Shown: piece after piece, positions 1 to 7,233 of the stretch
How positions within the stretch are numbered: the stretch's first letter is position 1
Layout of the letters: each line of letters starts with the position of its first letter
Position numbers and translations under genes: made by a program
The notes under the pieces: model-generated
Told to the model about the DNA's origin: nothing
The model's database searches: none
The model's input: the letters and a program-made list of their open reading frames with translations, nothing else
Assembly: GCA_003555285.1 (NCBI GenBank)
Contig: PWGH01000233.1
Span: 1-7,294, forward strand
Direction: 5' to 3'
Length of the DNA stretch: 7,294 nt
Source: Thioalkalivibrio sp.
Lineage (GTDB): Bacteria > Pseudomonadota > Gammaproteobacteria > Ectothiorhodospirales > Ectothiorhodospiraceae

Positions 1-1089
1 ATCGCCACGCGCGACGGCGCGATCTGCCGGGCGACGCGGGACGGCGCCGTGTGGATTACCCACCTGCGCCGGCTTGAGTTCGCGCCGGACCCCTTGAGCG
101 CACCAGAGACCTCGAAGGCGCCAGAGACCTTGAAGCTGCCGGCGACCCAGGTGCTGGGACCGGAACGCCTGGCCGGCGTGCCCGAGATCCCGCTGGATCC
201 CTTCGCCCCGGCCGACACCGGGACCTGGCGTGAGATCACCGCCCGGATCGACGGGGATGTGGGGGTGCTGGCCTTCGAATTCCACAACGGCGCGATGTCC
301 ACCGAACAGTGCCGCCGCCTGCTGGCGGCCTGGCAGCAATTGCGCGCGAGTTCGGCCCGGGTGCTGGTGCTCGAAGGCGGCAGCGACTTCTGGTCCAACG
401 GTATCCACCTGCACCGCATCGAGGCCGAGGGCAACGCCGCCGAGGCCTCCTGGGCCAACATCGAGGCGATGAACGACCTGACCCGCGCGATCATCGAGAC
501 CGAGGACCAATGGGTGATCGCCGCGCTGCAGGGCAACGCCGGCGCCGGCGGCGTCTTTCTGGCATTGGCCGCGGATGCCGTCTGGTGCGCGCCGGGGGTG
601 GTGCTCAATCCCCATTACAAGAACATGGGCAACCTCTACGGCTCCGAATACTGGACCTACCTGCTGCCGCGCCGCGTCGGCCTTGATGCCGCCCGACAGA
701 TCATGGGCAACCGGCTGCCGCTGGGCGCACCCGAGGCCGTGACGGCCGGCCTGGTCGATACGGTGCTCGATGCGCCGGACGGCGCCTTCCTCGACGCGGT
801 GCATCGGCGCGCGGCGGCTCTCGCCGTTGCGGCGGATCTGCCCGCTCGTCTGGCCGAGAAGCAGGCGCGCCGGCGCCAGGACGAGGCGATCAAGCCGCTG
901 GCGACCTACCGCGAAGAGGAGATGCAGCACATGCGGCTGAATTTCTTCGGCTTCGATCCCAGTTATCATGTTGCCCGGTACAACTTCGTGTACCGGGTGG
1001 CGCACTCGCGTACGCCGTTGCACCTGGCGCTGCATCGGCGCCTGGGCGCGTCGCGACCCCTGGGTGCCGCCGCGAGGAGCGAAGCATGA
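1..1089 (+). CDS. hoxX: HoxX/HypX hydrogenase maturation factor, C-terminal part (5' end outside window)
   Basis: The reading frame is open from base 1, so the GTG at 49 is an internal codon and not the start; 362 C-terminal residues are visible. The first about 25 residues (GAICRA..DGAVWITHLRR) look like the end of the N-terminal formyltransferase-like module. A linker follows, then a crotonase (enoyl-CoA hydratase/isomerase-like) domain from about visible residue 75 to the end. Recognisable pieces are the oxyanion-type stretch LQGNAGAGGVFLALAADAV, the HoxX-typical HYKNMGNLYGSEYWTYLLPRR (visible residues about 205-225), and the C-terminal FGFDPSYHVARYNFV signature. From knowledge of the family, HoxX makes CO from formyl-tetrahydrofolate via formyl-CoA for the active-site ligand of [NiFe] hydrogenases, mainly under aerobic conditions. 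Tyr206 and Glu216 (visible numbering) are ten apart, as are the Tyr/Glu pair reported for the Aquifex enzyme (from memory). The stop overlaps nikR by four bases, so the two genes are co-transcribed. The linker carries a small tandem duplication. Confidence 0.93.
   Translation: MATRDGAICRATRDGAVWITHLRRLEFAPDPLSAPETSKAPETLKLPATQVLGPERLAGVPEIPLDPFAPADTGTWREITARIDGDVGVLAFEFHNGAMSTEQCRRLLAAWQQLRASSARVLVLEGGSDFWSNGIHLHRIEAEGNAAEASWANIEAMNDLTRAIIETEDQWVIAALQGNAGAGGVFLALAADAVWCAPGVVLNPHYKNMGNLYGSEYWTYLLPRRVGLDAARQIMGNRLPLGAPEAVTAGLVDTVLDAPDGAFLDAVHRRAAALAVAADLPARLAEKQARRRQDEAIKPLATYREEEMQHMRLNFFGFDPSYHVARYNFVYRVAHSRTPLHLALHRRLGASRPLGAAARSEA
100..135 (+). repeat. 18-bp tandem duplication in the hoxX linker
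   Basis: Two adjacent 18-bp units (100-117 and 118-135) differ at two positions (16/18 identical) and are in frame, encoding APETSK-APETLK. The duplication lies between the formyltransferase-like and crotonase-like modules, where length variation should be tolerated. It looks like a replication-slippage product; no further function is implied. Confidence 0.8.
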
Positions 1090-1553
1090 GCGAACGATTT
1101 ACCGTCTCCGTCGAATCCGCACTGGCGGAAGACTTCGATGCTTTCATCAAGCGCCGGGGCTACAGCAACCGCTCGGAGGCGGTGCGGGATCTGATTCGGG
1201 GTGCGCTGGCCTCCGAGCAGCTTGCCCAGGGGCAGGACGGTCCCTGTGTCGGCGTGCTGAGCTACATGTACGACCACCATGAGCGCGAACTGAGCAAGCG
1301 CTTGACCCAGGCCCATCATGCGCACTTCAACCTGACGGTGACCACGCTGCACATGCACCTGGATCACGACCTGTGCGTGGAGTCGGTACTGCTCAGGGGC
1401 AATGCCAACGATGTCCAGGCCTTCGCCGAATCGGTGGTCGCCCGTCCCGGAATTCGTCACGGCAAGTTGCACCGCATTCCGCTGGAGCCGGCGGCGGGGT
1501 CGGGGGTGGACGCGGCCCCGATGCACCACCATGACCACGAGCATGCCGACTGA
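1086..1553 (+). CDS. nikR: NikR, nickel-responsive transcriptional regulator
   Basis: 155 residues. Residues 1-45 form a ribbon-helix-helix DNA-binding domain (short strand RFTVSVE, then the two helices with the family motif RRGYSNRSEAVRDLIR). Residues about 52-132 form the ACT-like nickel-binding and tetramerisation domain. The four high-affinity square-planar Ni ligands of E. coli NikR (His76, His87, His89, Cys95) align with His78, His89, His91 and Cys97 in TLHMHLDHDLC, so the sensor should be functional. E. coli NikR is 133 residues; this one continues for about 22 more and ends in a His-rich tail (MHHHDHEHAD, residues 146-155). The ATG is preceded by GAGGAG at 1074-1079 with a 6-nt spacer and overlaps the hoxX stop (ATGA), so translation is coupled. 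NikR normally represses nickel uptake genes when nickel is plentiful; the transporter 3 kb downstream is the obvious target. Autoregulation cannot be judged because the operon promoter is outside the window. Confidence 0.96.
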   Translation: MSERFTVSVESALAEDFDAFIKRRGYSNRSEAVRDLIRGALASEQLAQGQDGPCVGVLSYMYDHHERELSKRLTQAHHAHFNLTVTTLHMHLDHDLCVESVLLRGNANDVQAFAESVVARPGIRHGKLHRIPLEPAAGSGVDAAPMHHHDHEHAD

Positions 1554-1561
1554 GCGACGGC

Positions 1562-1587
1562 TCGGCCCGCATCCTTGGTCGGGCCGA
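1562..1587 (+). other. GC-rich hairpin after nikR (possible weak terminator or attenuator)
   Basis: TCGGCCCG (1562-1569) pairs perfectly with CGGGCCGA (1580-1587) around a 10-nt loop, starting 8 nt after the nikR stop. There is no T-run behind the stem, so it is not a canonical intrinsic terminator. It could pause polymerase, protect the 3' end of the hoxX-nikR message, or be incidental in GC-rich DNA. Confidence 0.4.
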
Positions 1588-1630
1588 AGCCCGGCTCGGA
1601 GTCCGGATGCCAATTCCGGCCAAGGTCCGG

Positions 1631-1648
1631 GCCGAGGCCGAGGCCGAG
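1631..1648 (+). repeat. GCCGAG hexamer, three perfect copies
   Basis: Three back-to-back GCCGAG units lie directly upstream of the chosen ggt start at 1653. They sit in the 99-bp nikR-ggt spacer, which otherwise holds only the hairpin at 1562-1587 and no clear promoter. The GAGG strings inside the repeat (for example 1640-1643, 9 nt before the GTG) are the only ribosome-binding candidates, so repeat number could affect translation; that is inference. Confidence 0.6.
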
Positions 1649-1652
1649 CTTC

Positions 1653-3329
1653 GTGAAGGCCTCCGGCGTAGTGGCGGCCGGACATCCGGCCACGGCCGAG
1701 GCAGCCGTCGCGGTGCTCGAGGCCGGCGGTAATGCCTTCGATGCGGTGATCGCCGGGCAATGGGCCGCGTGTGTGGCCGAACCGGTGTTGTCCTCGCTCG
1801 GTGGTGGCGGATTCCTGCTGGCGCGGCAGGGTCTGGGCCGGGTGCAGGCGCTGGACTTCTTCGTGCAGACGCCGCGGCACAAAAGGCCCCCGACCGAGAT
1901 CGATTTCCTGCCGATCGTGGCCGATTTCGGCGATGCCCAGCAGGAGTTCCACATCGGTCTCGGCTCCGCCGCCACCCCGGGCATGGTGCGCGGGCTGTTC
2001 GCAGCGCACCGGCGTTGGGGCAGCCTGCCGATGGCGCTGCTGCTCGAGTCGGCGATCGCGCTGGCGCGCGACGGAGTTCGGGTCAATGCGATGCAGGCCT
2101 ATGCCTTTCGGATCATCGGCGCGATCTATGGCCATTCCGAGGCCGCGCGCCAGGTCTTTGCGAGTTCGATCCGGCCCGGTTTCCCCGTGGTGGAGGGCGA
2201 TCTGTTGCGCCAGCCCGCGCTGGTGCACACGCTGGAATGCCTGGCGCAACAGGGTGCGGACTGGTTCTACACCGGTGAGCTGGCCCATCTCGTCGACGAA
2301 TTCTGCCGGCGCGAAGGCGGCCTGCTGCGGCTGGACGATCTGCAACACTATCGAGCCGAGCGGCGCACGCCGCTGAGCGTCGATTACCGCGGACACCGGA
2401 TCTGGACCAATCCGCCTCCGTCCTCGGGAGGCTTGTTGCTGGGTTTTGCCCTGAAGCTGCTGGCGTCTTCGGGCGGCGTGGACGCGAGCCCACGGACCTC
2501 AGGCTTATCGGGCCTGGGGCCGTCGACGTCGTGGCCATCGTCTTCAAGACCGGAGTCCTCAAGACCGGAGTCCTCAAGACCGGAATCCCCCGGTCAGGGT
2601 ACGGCCGCAGCGCTCGAGGCGCTCGCGCTGGCGATGGCCGTGACCGATCAGGCGCGGCTCGAGGCCCAGTCGGGCGACGACGGCTCGATTGATGCCAACC
2701 GGCTTCTGGATCCCGTGTGGTTGGCGCGGTATCAAAACGAGATCCAGGGGCGCGCCGTGGCGCCGCGCGGCACCACCCACCTGAGCGTGATGGACGGGCA
2801 GGGCAATGTCGCGAGCCTGACCGCCAGCAACGGCGAGGGTTGTGGGGTGCTGATTCCGGATACCGGCGTGATGCTGAACAACATGCTCGGCGAGGAGGAT
2901 CTGAATCCGCACGGATTCTTTCGTTGGCAGGAGAACCAGCGTCTGACCTCGATGATGGCCCCAACCCTGCTCGTTCGAGCCGATGGCGCCGAAATCGCGC
3001 TGGGCTCGGGGGGCTCGAACCGTATTCGCACCGCGATCCTGCAGGTGCTGCTGAATCTGCTGGATCACGGCCTGCCCCTGGTCGCGGCCGTCGAGGCCCC
3101 GCGCATTCATCTGGAGCAGGGCCTGCTGAGTGTGGAGGCGGGAGTGAACGGGCAGGATGCACTCGCCGCCCTGCTCGAGCGGTATCCGCAGCACCGGATC
3201 TGGGGCGATCGCAACCTGTTCTTTGGTGGCGTGCATGCGGTGGCCCGGGACGGCGACGGCTTCTCCGGCGCGGGTGATCCGCGCCGTGGCGGCGTCGTCC
3301 GTTACGTCGGTGATGCGGGCACCGGCTAG
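1653..3329 (+). CDS. ggt: Divergent gamma-glutamyltransferase-like Ntn hydrolase
   Basis: 558 residues from the GTG at 1653. The frame stays open to a TTG at 1575, but that extension is Pro/Arg-rich spacer sequence unlike the family, and homology begins at SGVVAAGHPATAEAA. No signal peptide is visible, so the protein is probably cytoplasmic. The fold is clear: NAFDAVIA, TPGMVRGLF, the NPPPSSGG motif, the autoprocessing site Gly373-Thr374-Thr-His (Thr374 is the expected nucleophile and N-terminus of a 185-residue small subunit), LNNMLGEEDLNP, LTSMMAPT (oxyanion region, usually LSSMSPT) and GSGGSNRI. Two deviations matter. Where E. coli GGT has Arg114 in DFREMAP, which holds the glutamate carboxylate, this protein has DFFVQTP (Phe70). 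The large subunit also contains an insert of roughly 40 residues (about 272-315) with SRPES three times. Family members hydrolyse or transfer gamma-glutamyl groups such as from glutathione, but the substrate here is open. It lies between nikR and the nickel transport genes in the same direction. Confidence 0.85.
   Translation: MKASGVVAAGHPATAEAAVAVLEAGGNAFDAVIAGQWAACVAEPVLSSLGGGGFLLARQGLGRVQALDFFVQTPRHKRPPTEIDFLPIVADFGDAQQEFHIGLGSAATPGMVRGLFAAHRRWGSLPMALLLESAIALARDGVRVNAMQAYAFRIIGAIYGHSEAARQVFASSIRPGFPVVEGDLLRQPALVHTLECLAQQGADWFYTGELAHLVDEFCRREGGLLRLDDLQHYRAERRTPLSVDYRGHRIWTNPPPSSGGLLLGFALKLLASSGGVDASPRTSGLSGLGPSTSWPSSSRPESSRPESSRPESPGQGTAAALEALALAMAVTDQARLEAQSGDDGSIDANRLLDPVWLARYQNEIQGRAVAPRGTTHLSVMDGQGNVASLTASNGEGCGVLIPDTGVMLNNMLGEEDLNPHGFFRWQENQRLTSMMAPTLLVRADGAEIALGSGGSNRIRTAILQVLLNLLDHGLPLVAAVEAPRIHLEQGLLSVEAGVNGQDALAALLERYPQHRIWGDRNLFFGGVHAVARDGDGFSGAGDPRRGGVVRYVGDAGTG
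2544..2588 (+). repeat. 15-bp tandem repeat, three copies, inside ggt
   Basis: Units at 2544-2558, 2559-2573 and 2574-2588 read TCAAGACCGGAGTCC; the third has a single G to A change. They are in frame and encode SRPES three times (residues 298-312) in a Ser/Pro-rich insert of the large subunit, upstream of the helix that other GGTs place directly after PPPSSGG. TCA and AGA codons, scarce in the surrounding GC-rich genes, suggest recent expansion or insertion. Confidence 0.9.
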
Positions 3330-3340
3330 CGTTGGTGTGG

Positions 3341-3362
3341 TGGGCCCGCTGCGCTTGGCCCA
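3341..3362 (+). terminator. Hairpin after ggt, possible weak terminator
   Basis: TGGGCC (3341-3346) pairs with GGCCCA (3357-3362) around a 10-nt loop, starting 12 nt after the ggt stop codon. No T-run follows, so factor-independent termination is doubtful. Its position at the end of the ggt unit, before the separate promoter near 3460-3485, is what makes a transcription-end role reasonable. Confidence 0.3.
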
Positions 3363-3365
3363 GCC

Positions 3366-3410
3366 TGCGAAGGGCCATTCTGCGAAGGGCCGGCCTGCGA
3401 AGGGCCATTC
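3366..3410 (+). repeat. 15-bp tandem repeat, three copies, in the ggt-receptor spacer
   Basis: Units at 3366-3380, 3381-3395 and 3396-3410. Copies one and three are identical (TGCGAAGGGCCATTC) and the middle copy differs only in the last four bases (GGCC for ATTC). Each outer unit contains a near-palindrome, GAAGGGCCATTC, so the array can fold. It is not related in sequence to the repeat inside ggt, although unit length and copy number match. It lies about 50 bp upstream of the -35-like hexamer of the receptor promoter. The rest of the 188-bp spacer holds no gene that I can see. Confidence 0.85.
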
Positions 3411-3456
3411 TGTTGCGGCCGCCGGTACCGGGTCGCGGGAACTCGGTTGGAAGCGA

Positions 3457-3485
3457 TTGGTGCCTGCGCTGTGCGGTGCTAGAAT
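3457..3485 (+). promoter_or_regulatory. Candidate sigma-70 promoter for the receptor / nik operon
   Basis: A -10-like TAGAAT (3480-3485; five of six to TATAAT) lies 17 bp after a weak -35-like TTGGTG (3457-3462; TTG retained). The -10 element starts an AT-rich island (about 3480-3517) that stands out sharply from the GC-rich surroundings and ends at the receptor start codon. Predicted transcription start is around 3491-3493. This is the only credible promoter seen upstream of the receptor-nikKLMQO block. Confidence 0.5.
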
Positions 3486-3488
3486 AAG

Positions 3489-3512
3489 CAGTATTACAAA
3501 AAAGGATTACTG
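3489..3512 (+). promoter_or_regulatory. Imperfect palindrome over the predicted transcription start, candidate NikR operator
   Basis: CAGTATTAC (3489-3497) and GGATTACTG (3504-3512) form an inverted repeat with 7 of 9 pairs matching around six A residues. It overlaps the predicted transcription start, a good place for a repressor. The left arm contains GTATTAC, resembling the GTGTTAC half-site reported for some non-enterobacterial NikR proteins, but the spacing is shorter than in those sites and it does not match the E. coli GTATGA-N16-TCATAC operator. The AAGGA inside the right part (3502-3506) is also the probable ribosome-binding site for the ATG at 3518, 11 nt away, so a bound protein would mask it. 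NikR as the ligand is inference from context. Confidence 0.35.
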
Positions 3513-3517
3513 ACTTC

Positions 3518-4604
3518 ATGAAGTCCAGCAGTCGCCGGCCGTATGGACTGGCTAAAGCGGTTGCGGCCTTGCATCCGGTTCGGGTCGTGCGTACCCCGCA
3601 ATTGCCTGGGTTTGCGGCGGTGCTGATCCTCGGGATCGGCGTGGGGTTTCCGCTCACACTTCCCGCCGATGCCGCTTATCGCCTCGCACCGATCGTGGTC
3701 ACCATCGGACGGATCGCGGAGGTGGAAGACCAAACGGTGGCGCCGGTTGGCGTGGTGGAACGCCGGGAGATCGAGCGCCGGCAGGCGCAGGATCTCGACG
3801 CGGTGCTGCTCGGGATGCCGGGGGTGACGACCGCCGGCGGCCCCCGCCAGGCGGCCCTGGACCCAAATATCCGTGGTCTGGGCGAAGGCCGGGTGGTGGT
3901 TCGGATCGACGGCGCGCGGCAGAACCTCAACATCCGTCACCGCGGCCAGACCTTCATCGACCCGGCGTTGTTCGAGCGCGTCGAGGTGCTGCGCGGCCCC
4001 GGTTCGAGCCTGCACGGTAGCGGCGCGATCGGCGGCGTGATGAGCCTGCGCACGCTGGAGCCGTCCAGCGTGCTCGAACCCGGGCAGGACCTTGGTGGGC
4101 GCGTCGTCGCCGGCTACCAGGACAACGGGCGGCGCGTGTCCGGCGGCCTGACGCTGGCCGGAAGGGGCGCTGCGACCGAGTGGCTGGGCGCGGTGAGCCT
4201 GCGCGACCATTCGGACTTCCGCGACGGCGAAGGGGAGCGGGTGGCCTTCACCGGAAGCGACGTGGTCTCGGGCCTGCTGAAGGGCCGCTGGGACATCGAC
4301 CAGGGGCATCCCTGGCGATCGCTTGGTGTTGGATGGCGCCTGGCGGTGGCGCGGCCCTGATCTCGAGACCGGCGCTCGGCTGAGCTTGAACCGGTCTCAG
4401 GACCGGGTTCCCGATCGCGATCACACGATCGGGCCGACACCCGGATACCACCTGGTCGATGTCTTCATGACCTGGCAACCCGCAAAGCGACTCACCGTCG
4501 ACGCGGGAATCGACAACCTGATGGACACGACCTACCGGCGGCACCTGTCGCAGCTGAACGATCCGGGCCGCAATGCCCGGGTACAGGGCATCTACCGGTT
4601 CTGA
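3518..4604 (+). pseudogene. TonB-dependent outer-membrane receptor, internally deleted and frameshifted
   Basis: From the ATG at 3518 the first frame gives a long signal peptide (hydrophobic stretch about residues 28-46, cleavage near ADA-AYR), a TonB-box-like IVVTIGR, and a plug domain. The plug contains DLDAVLLGMPGV, NIRGLGEGRVVVRIDGARQN and RVEVLRGPGSSLHGSGAIGGV, typical of the haem/haemoglobin-like receptor group. Only the first barrel strands follow before the frame stops at 4358-4360. In the +1-shifted frame, from about 4311 to the stop at 4602-4604, comes an authentic receptor C-terminus: PGYHLVDVFMTW, GIDNLMDTTYRRHLSQLNDPGRN, and the final Phe (IYRF) recognised by the outer-membrane assembly machinery. 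About 350 residues are present in total, whereas such receptors are usually 650-750, so some 300-400 barrel residues are missing. The junction lies around 4300-4320. By position just before nikK it was probably the outer-membrane nickel (or cobalt) receptor. Either a recent deletion or an assembly collapse explains it. Confidence 0.85.
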
Positions 4605-4645: not shown

Positions 4646-5485
4646 ATGCGCAGCATCGAAGAACATCCGGTCCATCACCTCGAGCGCGGTCGCGAAGCTG
4701 CAGGTCGGCCGCGGTGCCCCGGTCGCGGCCCGCGCGTCGCACTCGGTCTGGGCGCGCTGGTCGGCCTTGCGGTGCTGCTCGCGGGAGCGCCGGCCCTCGC
4801 GCACTATCCCTGGATCACGGTGCACGCAGGCGAGCCACAGGGCGCCTCGTTCCGCATCGGCTTCGGGCACGCGTTTCCGGCAGACGGGCAGTTGCCGGCC
4901 GATCGTCTCGAGGGCGTGCGTCTGGTGCAGCCCGATGGTAGCGTGCGGGCCCTTGAACTCGAGGCGCGTGACGATCATTCGCTGCCCGACGCGGCGCCAG
5001 GGGCCATCCTGATCGTCGCCGAACAGAAGCCGGCGTACTGGAGCCGGACCCACGAGGGGGGGCGCAGGGCCTCCCGGGAACGGTATCCGGAGGCCTTCAG
5101 TTGCAGCCAGTCGGCCAACTCGATGAAGGCCATCGCGGGCCAGGGGCCGGGCGTGGCCTGGCAGCATCGGCAGGGTCAGCTGCTCGAGGTGGTGCCGCTG
5201 GTCGATCCCGCGGCGCTGCGTGCCGGCGATCCGCTTTCAGTGCAGGTGCTGCTGCATGGCGAGCCCTGGGCGGGCGAAGTCCGCGCCACCCATGCCGGCT
5301 ACCCGCGCGACGGTGAGAACGACTACGCGCTCACCGTGCGCACCGACGCCGACGGCGTGGCCCGGCTGGTGCCGGCGGAATCCGGGGACTGGCTGGTGCA
5401 CGCCCACGCCACCGAGGACTACCCGGATCCGGCGGTCTGCGACCGGCGCTCGTACTCTTCCACGCTGACGTTCACGCTGCGCTGA
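4646..5485 (+). CDS. nikK: NikK, DUF4198-type periplasmic nickel-uptake component
   Basis: 279 residues. An N-terminal export signal has an unusually long polar region (residues 1-30, rich in Arg and His) and a hydrophobic core at about 31-48; cleavage is expected after Ala50-Leu-Ala52, so the mature protein starts His53-Tyr-Pro-Trp. The mature part is of the DUF4198 type (COG5266, annotated as the periplasmic component of Co/Ni ABC transport): AHYPWITVHAGE, IGFGHAFPADG, then a C-terminal beta-sandwich with the LVHAHATEDYPD segment. Two Cys residues (in FSCSQS and AVCDRRS) could form a disulfide in the periplasm. In comparative genomics of nickel transporters, NikK and NikL replace NikN in some ECF-type systems, and nikL follows here after 3 nt. 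Its exact job is unproven; delivering periplasmic nickel to NikM is the simple model. The start is set by AGAGGAG at 4634-4640. Confidence 0.85.
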   Translation: MRSIEEHPVHHLERGREAAGRPRCPGRGPRVALGLGALVGLAVLLAGAPALAHYPWITVHAGEPQGASFRIGFGHAFPADGQLPADRLEGVRLVQPDGSVRALELEARDDHSLPDAAPGAILIVAEQKPAYWSRTHEGGRRASRERYPEAFSCSQSANSMKAIAGQGPGVAWQHRQGQLLEVVPLVDPAALRAGDPLSVQVLLHGEPWAGEVRATHAGYPRDGENDYALTVRTDADGVARLVPAESGDWLVHAHATEDYPDPAVCDRRSYSSTLTFTLR

Positions 5486-5488
5486 ACC

Positions 5489-6007
5489 ATGCCGGTACGC
5501 GCCGAAGGTTGTGGTGGCACCGGGCTTCGGCCATCCCGCGGCCGGCGCGGTTTCCGTCATTCGGGAACTTCCCTGCTGCTGCTTGCAGCGGTGCTGGCCG
5601 CTCCGCCGGCCGCGTCGCATGCGCTGCTGCACCGGGTGCTCGAGGCGGACGCAATGGTCCGGGCCGAATTCTACTTTCCCGATGGCGACCGGCCCTACTT
5701 CGAGAGCTACCGGGTGATGGCGCCGGACGACCACCGTCCGTTCCAGACCGGGCGCGTAAATGCGGCGGGGGAGGTGACTTTCCAACCGGACCGGCCGGGC
5801 CCGTGGCGGGTGATCGTCGCCACCGAGGATGGGCATGGCACCGAGCTGCGGATCACCGTCGATGCCGATGGCATCGCTTCGGGCACTCAAGGCCTGGTAG
5901 GGCTTTCGCGCTGGGAACGCCTGACTGCGGGCGTCGGCTATCTGCTGGGGATGTTCGGTCTCCTGGCGTTGTGGCGCATGCACCGCGCCCGCAGACAGCC
6001 CGTCTGA
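5489..6007 (+). CDS. nikL: NikL, membrane-anchored nickel-transporter accessory protein
   Basis: 172 residues. It has an Arg-rich n-region, a hydrophobic core at about 28-40 (TSLLLLAAVLAAPP), and then a probable signal cleavage after Ala41-Ala-Ser43, leaving His44-Ala-Leu-Leu-His at the mature end (cleavage after Ala45 is possible). A small beta-sandwich domain (about 50-130) holds EFYFPDGDRPYFESYRVMAPDD, TFQPDRPGPWRVIVATEDGHG and further strands, as in the carboxypeptidase-regulatory-like fold. A single C-terminal membrane helix (about 145-162) is followed by a basic tail RMHRARRQPV, so the domain faces the periplasm. This is the architecture of NikL in NikKLMQO transporters, where it is thought to take the place of the small NikN/CbiN subunit next to NikM. 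It starts 3 nt after nikK and ends 1 nt before nikM with no strong ribosome-binding site of its own, implying translational coupling. Confidence 0.82.
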   Translation: MPVRAEGCGGTGLRPSRGRRGFRHSGTSLLLLAAVLAAPPAASHALLHRVLEADAMVRAEFYFPDGDRPYFESYRVMAPDDHRPFQTGRVNAAGEVTFQPDRPGPWRVIVATEDGHGTELRITVDADGIASGTQGLVGLSRWERLTAGVGYLLGMFGLLALWRMHRARRQPV

Positions 6008-6008
6008 C

Positions 6009-6671
6009 ATGCACATCCCCGACGGACTGATCTCGCCCCAGACGTATCTGCCCGCGCTGGCCGTCGCCGTGCCGCTGTGGTGGTGGGCTGGGCGCAGTTT
6101 CCGGCGCCAGGTCGGAGATGAGGTCCTGCCGCGGCTCGCGGTGTTCACTGCGCTGGCCTTCCTGTTGTCCAGCCTGATGCTGCCGCTGCCGGGCGGGACC
6201 TCGGGGCATGCAATCGGCGTAGGGCTGCTGACGCTGGTCTTCGGGCCGTGGGTCGCCTTTTTGGCCTACACCCTGGTATTGGTGCTGCAGGCGCTGGTGA
6301 TGGGCGCGGGCGGCATCACGGCGCTGCCGGTGAACGCGCTGGCGATGGGCTTCGTGGGGGCCTTTCTCGCCTATGGCCTGTTCCATCTGCTGCGGTCGGT
6401 GCAGATCGATCTGGCCGTGGTCGTTGCGGTCTTCGTCTCCATCCTGGCGTCCGCGCTGCTGGTTGCCCTGGTCTTGGGGCTGCAGCCGCTGATTGCCCAG
6501 GCGCCGGACGGCAGTCCGCGTTTCTTCCCGTTTGGCTGGGCGGTGACCGTGCCGGCGGTGCTCGTGCCGCACCTGTTCATCGGTGTGGCCGAGGCCGCGC
6601 TGACGCTGCTGATCTGGCGCCATGCCCGCAAGCGGCATTGGCTGCTTGCATCGGGCGGGCAGGGGGCCTGA
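6009..6671 (+). CDS. nikM: NikM, metal-binding S component of the nickel ECF transporter
   Basis: 220 residues, strongly hydrophobic, with about six or seven membrane segments. It begins with the invariant CbiM/NikM signature MHIPDG and contains PGGTSGHAIG with His at residue 67. In the NikM2 crystal structure from Thermoanaerobacter the Ni ion is bound by the N-terminal amine of Met1, the amide and imidazole of His2, and His67; His2 and His67 both occur here at identical positions. The conserved block ALVMGAGGITALPVNALAMGF follows. The protein therefore should be an active Ni (possibly Co) carrier. There is no NikN- or CbiN-type gene, and nikK and nikL sit immediately upstream instead. nikL ends 1 nt before it and nikQ begins 1 nt after its stop. 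The ATG at 6009 must be correct because the N-terminus is itself the metal ligand. Ni versus Co cannot be decided from the protein alone; nikR and hoxX in the locus favour Ni. Confidence 0.95.
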   Translation: MHIPDGLISPQTYLPALAVAVPLWWWAGRSFRRQVGDEVLPRLAVFTALAFLLSSLMLPLPGGTSGHAIGVGLLTLVFGPWVAFLAYTLVLVLQALVMGAGGITALPVNALAMGFVGAFLAYGLFHLLRSVQIDLAVVVAVFVSILASALLVALVLGLQPLIAQAPDGSPRFFPFGWAVTVPAVLVPHLFIGVAEAALTLLIWRHARKRHWLLASGGQGA

Positions 6672-6672
6672 G

Positions 6673-7233
6673 GTGCCGACACTCTCGCATCCGGCGCGTC
6701 TGGGCCTCTACCTGCTGGCGGTGGTGGCAATCAGCTTCGTGCACGATCCGCGCGGGCTCGCGTTGATTCTGGTCGGCGCGCTGCTGCTGTCCGGCGCGGG
6801 TCGTCTCCGCTTGCTGTTGCGTGCGCTGCGCGTGGTGTTGGCCATCCTGCTGCTGCTCTCGGCCGGGTTCCTGCTGATGGGCTGGCTGACCGGGCAGCCG
6901 GTGGTGGCGGCGCTGGTGCTGATCAACCTGCGGGTGCTGCTGCTCGCGCTGCTGACCGCCTGGATGATGCGTGCGGTGAATCTGGATCGTGCGCTGGTGC
7001 ACTGGCCGCAGGCGCAGCGCTGGCTGGTGATCGTGCGCGGGCAGATCCAGCTGTTCCGCCGTTTGGCGCAGGACTACCGCTACGCGCAGCGCAGCCGCTC
7101 GGTGCTGCCGCCGACCTTGCGTGAGCGCTATCGGGGTAGTGCGGCGATCGGCTTGGCCGCGCTCGACAAGGGCGTGCACAACGCCGATCTGGTGACCCAG
7201 GCCATGCGCTCGCGGGGCGCGTTGCATGACTGA
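6673..7233 (+). CDS. nikQ: NikQ, transmembrane T component (EcfT/CbiQ family)
   Basis: 186 residues from the GTG at 6673, which has AGGGGG at 6661-6666 with a 6-nt spacer. An ATG at 6622 in the same frame lies inside nikM and yields a non-hydrophobic, unfamily-like leader, so it was rejected. Four or so membrane helices occupy about 10-100 (two close together at the start, then VVLAILLLLSAGFLLMGWL and LVLINLRVLLLALLTAWMM). The cytosolic C-terminal half has the coupling-helix motifs of EcfT proteins: QRSRS (about 139-143) and MRSRG (178-182, the usual xRG signature) that dock on the ATPase. It is shorter than typical CbiQ (about 220-260), mainly because the N-terminal region is compact. It couples ATP hydrolysis by NikO to NikM. 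Its end overlaps the nikO start by 8 bp. Confidence 0.9.
   Translation: MPTLSHPARLGLYLLAVVAISFVHDPRGLALILVGALLLSGAGRLRLLLRALRVVLAILLLLSAGFLLMGWLTGQPVVAALVLINLRVLLLALLTAWMMRAVNLDRALVHWPQAQRWLVIVRGQIQLFRRLAQDYRYAQRSRSVLPPTLRERYRGSAAIGLAALDKGVHNADLVTQAMRSRGALHD

Follow-up and report, generated by a model that had tools for sequence, protein, structure and literature searches.

Organization of the locus

The stretch of DNA analysed here, 7,294 nucleotides from Thioalkalivibrio sp. and hereafter called the window, carries genes on its plus strand only, in the order enoyl-CoA-hydratase-like gene, nikR, ggt, TonB-dependent receptor, nikK, nikL, nikM and a nikQ-like open reading frame (Table 1); judging by the ggt protein record, the 7,294-base contig is most likely the window end to end. 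Set against the NikKMLQO complement, K and M were found, L was assigned from a match below the profile cut-off and Q by position, and nikO would fall past the end of the window. The nikQ-like frame gave no Pfam or NCBIfam match at 0.001, and a frame 66-72% identical to it lies 3' of nikM in all seven close-relative loci that have sequence beyond nikM. The nikK ATG is preceded by AGAGGAG and, by eye, is in register with a start in a related locus (L074); a longer in-frame ATG lies at 4604. An Rfam search returned nothing over gathering scores.

The order enoyl-CoA-hydratase-like gene, nikR, ggt (window 49-3329) is kept in each of the 11 close relatives examined (11 loci), a conserved link of gamma-glutamyltransferase with nickel genes. 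After ggt and before the receptor promoter, a 15-bp unit is repeated in tandem in three imperfect copies (3357-3412). Within ggt itself, a repeat with a period of 15 bp (2544-2584) gives the protein an additional SRPES-type stretch.

Table 1. Features of the nickel locus, with window coordinates and supporting observations.
Feature	Position	Strand	Observations
nikR, nickel-responsive repressor	1086..1553	+	NikR_C PF08753 E 4.9e-26; NF002815 181.5 bits, cut-off 83
ggt, gamma-glutamyltransferase	1575..3329	+	PF01019 E 2.3e-100; sits between nikR and the receptor/nikK promoter
promoter/operator-like block	3476..3513	+	TAGAAT, then CAGTA-N14-TACTG dyad; immediately 5' of the receptor start
receptor N-terminal piece	3518..4360	+	signal peptide (by eye), plug, barrel strands 1-4, stop 4358-4360
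deletion junction	4298..4310	+	about 959 bp of the L001 gene absent
receptor C-terminal piece	4308..4604	+	barrel strands 18-22, terminal Phe, stop 4602-4604; frame shifted relative to N-terminal piece
nikK (DUF4198)	4646..5485	+	PF10670 E 8e-34
nikL	5489..6007	+	NF058648 E 1.6e-15, 57.6 bits, under its cut-off of 100
nikM	6009..6671	+	CbiM PF01891 E 4.3e-54
nikQ	6622..7233	+	assigned by position and conservation only

Anatomy of the receptor remnant

The original prediction, made from the letters alone, had described the receptor as a gene whose signal peptide, plug, first strands and last strands with terminal Phe are intact, whose central barrel of about 300-400 residues is gone and whose frame changes near 4300-4320, and our analysis bears out this anatomy. 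The TonB-dependent receptor plug (PF07715, E 1.1e-25) occupies residues 72-174 of the N-terminal open reading frame of 280 amino acids, which closes with about 18 out-of-frame residues before its stop. The final part of the TonB_dep_Rec_b-barrel profile (PF00593, positions 382-436 of 436) is found in the C-terminal frame (4323-4604), which ends in YRF followed by the stop codon. As a reference we used the receptor of L001 (PULL01000283.1, from a Thioalkalivibrio sp. MAG, genome G001), the nearest relative found and one of four loci returned, which encodes 673 amino acids without an internal stop. At the protein level its identity is 80% with the N-terminal piece and 76% with the C-terminal piece. 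Two blastn blocks align the genes, window 3677-4298 with L001 361-982 (79.4%) and window 4306-4604 with L001 1949-2247 (79.1%), and between them the offset changes by 959 bases, which is not a multiple of three; the frame change falls at approximately 4298-4310, on the margin of the range first given. On an AlphaFold model of the L001 receptor (mean pLDDT 89.2, pTM 0.88), in which 22 barrel strands were counted by hand with two short loop strands excluded, the window keeps the plug, strands 1-4 and strands 18-22 and lacks strands 5-17, that is approximately residues 255-575, roughly 320 amino acids and 13 of the 22 strands. The complete 22-strand barrel in a single frame that a TonB-dependent receptor requires is therefore absent, and the window gene is a remnant of such a receptor and no working member of the family.

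At the junction, GCA (about 3 nt) is all that the two donor sides clearly share. The deletion edges were examined for short direct repeats, as had been proposed: in L001, used in place of an intact allele of the window, exact repeats near the edges do not exceed 6 nt, which makes a repeat-driven assembly collapse unlikely. Two structural features were considered as causes of the break and rejected. The hairpin CCAGGG-GCAT-CCCTGG (4300-4315), with a perfect 6-bp stem and a 4-nt loop, is one of 25 such stems in the window. The inverted repeat of 13 nt, also perfect, that pairs 4292-4304 with 4451-4463 and has one arm just 5' of the junction is at chance level, at least one 13-nt inverted pair occurring in 30% of 200 Markov sequences of 1501 nt. 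A search for the junction pattern in viral contigs gave 0 matches. Past the receptor stop, homology between the window and L001 extends for about 60 bases (L001 2248-2307), as far as the region of the nikK start. No nikK match occurs in L001, and G001 has part of a nikK on another contig.

An operator-like block common to the receptor and nikK

In eight relatives that have no receptor at this position, a 38-bp block of constant layout lies 5' of nikK. A weight matrix built from those eight sites, which were picked by eye, with the window, L001 and L074 left out, scored 35.7 bits at window position 3476, the next non-overlapping window site reaching 0.3; the sites ahead of the L001 receptor, which is intact, and ahead of the receptor remnant in L074 reached 29.6 and 37.2 bits, compared with leave-one-out scores of 38.1-47.9 for the training sites and a best score of 14.6 bits in seven other loci, five of which are loci of distant homologues. 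A sequence model made from all 11 sites found ten places in nine of the 11 genomes: each of the nine has a site upstream of nikK, and G001, the only genome with two, has its other site upstream of its intact receptor. Matches of this model to its own training sites are expected; no further site appeared in the 11 genomes at E <= 10, and the two genomes in which no block site was found (G015 and G017) gave no NikM match either. The receptor of the window thus has a putative regulatory site in common with the nickel transporter genes of its relatives. By eye, the half-sites of the block resemble the published NikR half-sites GTATGAT and GTGTTAC (PMC545781), but the spacer to the inverted partner is about 6 nt where the published NikR box has N13/14. 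Because of this difference in spacing, binding of the block by NikR is put forward here as a proposal.

Distribution of the receptor among relatives

Among 192 genomes around G001 that were screened at E <= 1e-10, 14 had a NikM match and 32 a NikR match, and 16 regions from 15 genomes were compared, twelve of them from eleven close relatives and four more distant (L083-L086); no receptor match was seen in the distant four. The interval between ggt and nikK could be read in nine relative loci (L079, L080 and L082 stand outside this count, as the interval was not in the sequence or nikK is missing there). In eight of these intervals tblastn, at a threshold of E <= 0.01, matched no part of the receptor; blastn at E <= 1 returned from them the promoter block plus three weak hits, 22-48 nt long (E 0.19 twice, and 0.32). 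The ninth, L074 of genome G018, retains after the operator block the last 45 codons of the receptor only, 64-67% identical and with an in-frame TAG. When the 11 close-relative genomes were searched with the full-length receptor, a single close copy proved intact, that of G001, on a 3268-base contig separate from its nikK. The search also returned the L074 remnant and, in G028, receptor residues 529-673, with one TGA and one frame change, at another locus; the other receptor matches in these genomes are at most 40% identical. Intact receptors beside nikK, proposed for the alignment, were not found, and the junction was placed with the intact gene of L001. In 369 genomes drawn from the class, only G001 was returned at E <= 1e-150, and nine loci of more distant homologues gave no match to the window's nik proteins within 15-18 kb around them.

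Two of the relatives, G013 (L076) and G011 (L077), have a different gene between ggt and the nikK operator block, which by eye, from its motif, looks like a GTP cyclohydrolase II. The ggt match in G011 (L077 5622-7179) falls into two pieces in different frames, a possible frameshift or assembly error.

The three broken copies, in the window, G018 and G028, differ in extent, which suggests separate deletions. Trees of the neighbouring proteins conflict in where they place the window: the enoyl-CoA hydratase, NikR and GGT tree sets it apart from G018, G001 and G028 with a support of 0.088 at its position, the NikK, L, M and Q tree joins it to G018 (0.753), and the tree of all seven proteins joins it to G017 (0.942). 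As the nik-gene tree pairs the window with G018, the decays of these two copies may share history. The receptor pieces are more alike between the window and L001 (80% and 76%) than are the neighbouring proteins between the window and G001 (72-73%), so that transfer of the receptor is possible and would alter the count of losses. We also observed that NikK and NikL of G018 are nearer to those of the window (74% and 78%; L074 2834-4285) than are those of other close relatives (50-69%); a block transfer of receptor, nikK and nikL is possible.

Age of the break

The original prediction had also noted little decay outside the deletion, leaving either a recent event or an artefact, and both points held up. 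Neither receptor piece contains an in-frame stop, which argues that the break is recent. Compared with L001 by the NG86 method, the N-terminal piece (207 codons) has a dN of 0.0852 and a dS of 0.9715 and the C-terminal piece (98 codons) a dN of 0.1414 and a dS of 0.8909, while YN00 gives a dS of 2.35 for the N-terminal piece; the substitutions gather at third codon positions (25, 10 and 93 across the three positions in the N-terminal piece; 17, 11 and 39 in the C-terminal piece). The window and L001 each deviate at 5 of 83 family-conserved columns, taken as those conserved in 80% or more of 39 homologues, and only one of the window's deviations is absent from L001. By a hand estimate, about 3% neutral divergence would yield roughly five private changes at those 83 codons. 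The deletion is thus probably younger than about 3% neutral divergence, or not present in the cell at all.

Alternative readings of the locus

The latter possibility, that a chimeric read or misjoin dropped the barrel during amplification or assembly and that the living cell has an intact receptor, draws on the fact that the window is one short contig and that a chimera or assembly error would look as free of disabling mutations as the two pieces do. The identical shifted 280-residue protein is also on record from a contig of other size, 8147 bases (a figure taken at face value from the protein record) against 7294 here, which speaks for the junction, but both contigs may derive from the same reads. 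Together with the dearth of long repeats near the edges in L001, the reduction or loss of the same gene in relatives favours a real event, and we infer a true genomic deletion and regard an artefact as unlikely. Identity of the relatives' backbone proteins is only 68-76%, and among the matches listed, nothing that could be the window's own intact allele lay between the L001 protein itself and a 56% match. Far less probable still, to the point that we give it hardly any weight, is that the two pieces continue to function, as a small plug protein or a split receptor: both are open reading frames, but with 13 of 22 strands absent no barrel can close, and the remaining 32 protein-search matches for the 280-residue protein are at most 63% identical, six of them being named partial.

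A different question is whether the gene was a nickel receptor, as first proposed, or a true heme receptor that happened to sit in the nik operon, in which case its loss would be unrelated to nickel. By sequence the gene belongs to the heme receptor family. Both pieces find their best NCBIfam match in the TonB-hemin subfamily TIGR01785; at 176 bits (N-terminal) and 46 bits (C-terminal) they stay below its cut-off of 316.85, as is expected for fragments. The best PDB matches are ShuA-type structures (ShuA 3fhh), with which L001 aligns a plug histidine and the histidine of the FRAP/NPDL box. Both are invariant in a 40-row alignment (L001 and 39 of 120 listed homologues), and presumably the plug histidine and that between FRAP and NPNL are heme ligands; the window keeps the plug histidine and has lost the FRAP/NPDL region. 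Moreover, homologues 45-48% identical neighbour heme genes in all three distant loci scanned out of nine (L018, L022 and L025), where ChuX/HutX or HemS occurs together with a Peripla_BP_2 or FecCD protein. Set against this, the receptor heads the nik operon and has the block of nikK, both in the window and, away from the nik locus, in G001, whereas five distant homologue loci, including the three with heme genes, score at most 14.6 bits for that block. ChuX/HutX matches occur in four of 13 genomes searched and are absent from G001, G018 and G028, the three that have a close copy, whether intact or as a remnant, though these assemblies may be incomplete. The nickel assignment, which would run against the usual role of the family, rests on the operon and the operator-like block, and we consider a plain heme receptor somewhat unlikely.

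Discussion

Our findings are best explained by a recent internal deletion in the receptor of a receptor-nikKLMQ(O) operon, in a clade that has repeatedly discarded this receptor while nikK and the block were kept, and we consider this explanation probable. The receptor would have been the first gene of that operon, adjoining nikR, and a single recent loss of about 959 bp, by illegitimate recombination or replication slippage between ends of little or no homology, would have removed barrel strands 5-17 and shifted the frame, leaving a fragment of the plug and four strands as the only possible product. Both the operator-like block and the downstream inner-membrane nickel system are kept; elsewhere in the clade the receptor would have been discarded repeatedly, with nikK staying behind the same block. 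Nickel, which may have been the receptor's substrate in some chemical species, would now cross the outer membrane through porins. Most likely the window gene became a pseudogene recently, in a lineage with recurrent loss of this receptor, the substrate being less certain than first stated, and it is a case of ordinary gene decay, caught early in a bacterium akin to the sulfur oxidisers of soda lakes. More tentatively, we suggest that the nickel regulon of a Thioalkalivibrio-like gammaproteobacterial clade took in a TonB receptor of heme type, which was then lost more than once with operator and importer kept, the window representing the earliest stage of loss seen; the cargo of the recruited receptor would perhaps have been a nickel chelate or a nickel tetrapyrrole.

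The relatives offer a graded series, with the receptor intact in one, freshly deleted here, reduced to its last codons in another and gone from the locus elsewhere, in which an outer-membrane receptor leaves a metal operon and the rest is undisturbed. A receptor of a heme family behind a nickel-type operator also presents a substrate open to direct test. Among the matches listed in a literature search, titles and abstract openings contained no report of this receptor or its loss.

In comparison with known systems, L001 resembles the TonB-dependent heme/hemoglobin receptors (TIGR01785; ShuA 3fhh, HasR, PhuR) in its plug, barrel, FRAP/NPDL box and both histidines, but it and the window differ from them in having a block in common with nikK, and the window additionally in the absence of the FRAP/NPDL part and 13 strands. 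TonB-dependent receptors linked to nickel exist, FrpB4 of Helicobacter among them. The window gene resembles FrpB4 as an outer-membrane receptor placed, putatively here, under nickel control; unlike it, the window gene is broken and nickel is a candidate substrate only. The NikKMLQO nickel ECF transporter under NikR control (PMC545781, PMC2667541) differs in its half-site spacing (N13/14, against about N6 between the putative half-sites of the window), and the window differs in the ggt gene that stands between nikR and the operon; the transporter is matched by the window in the presence of nikR near nikK, nikL and nikM with a nikQ-like open reading frame, NikK and NikL replacing NikN.
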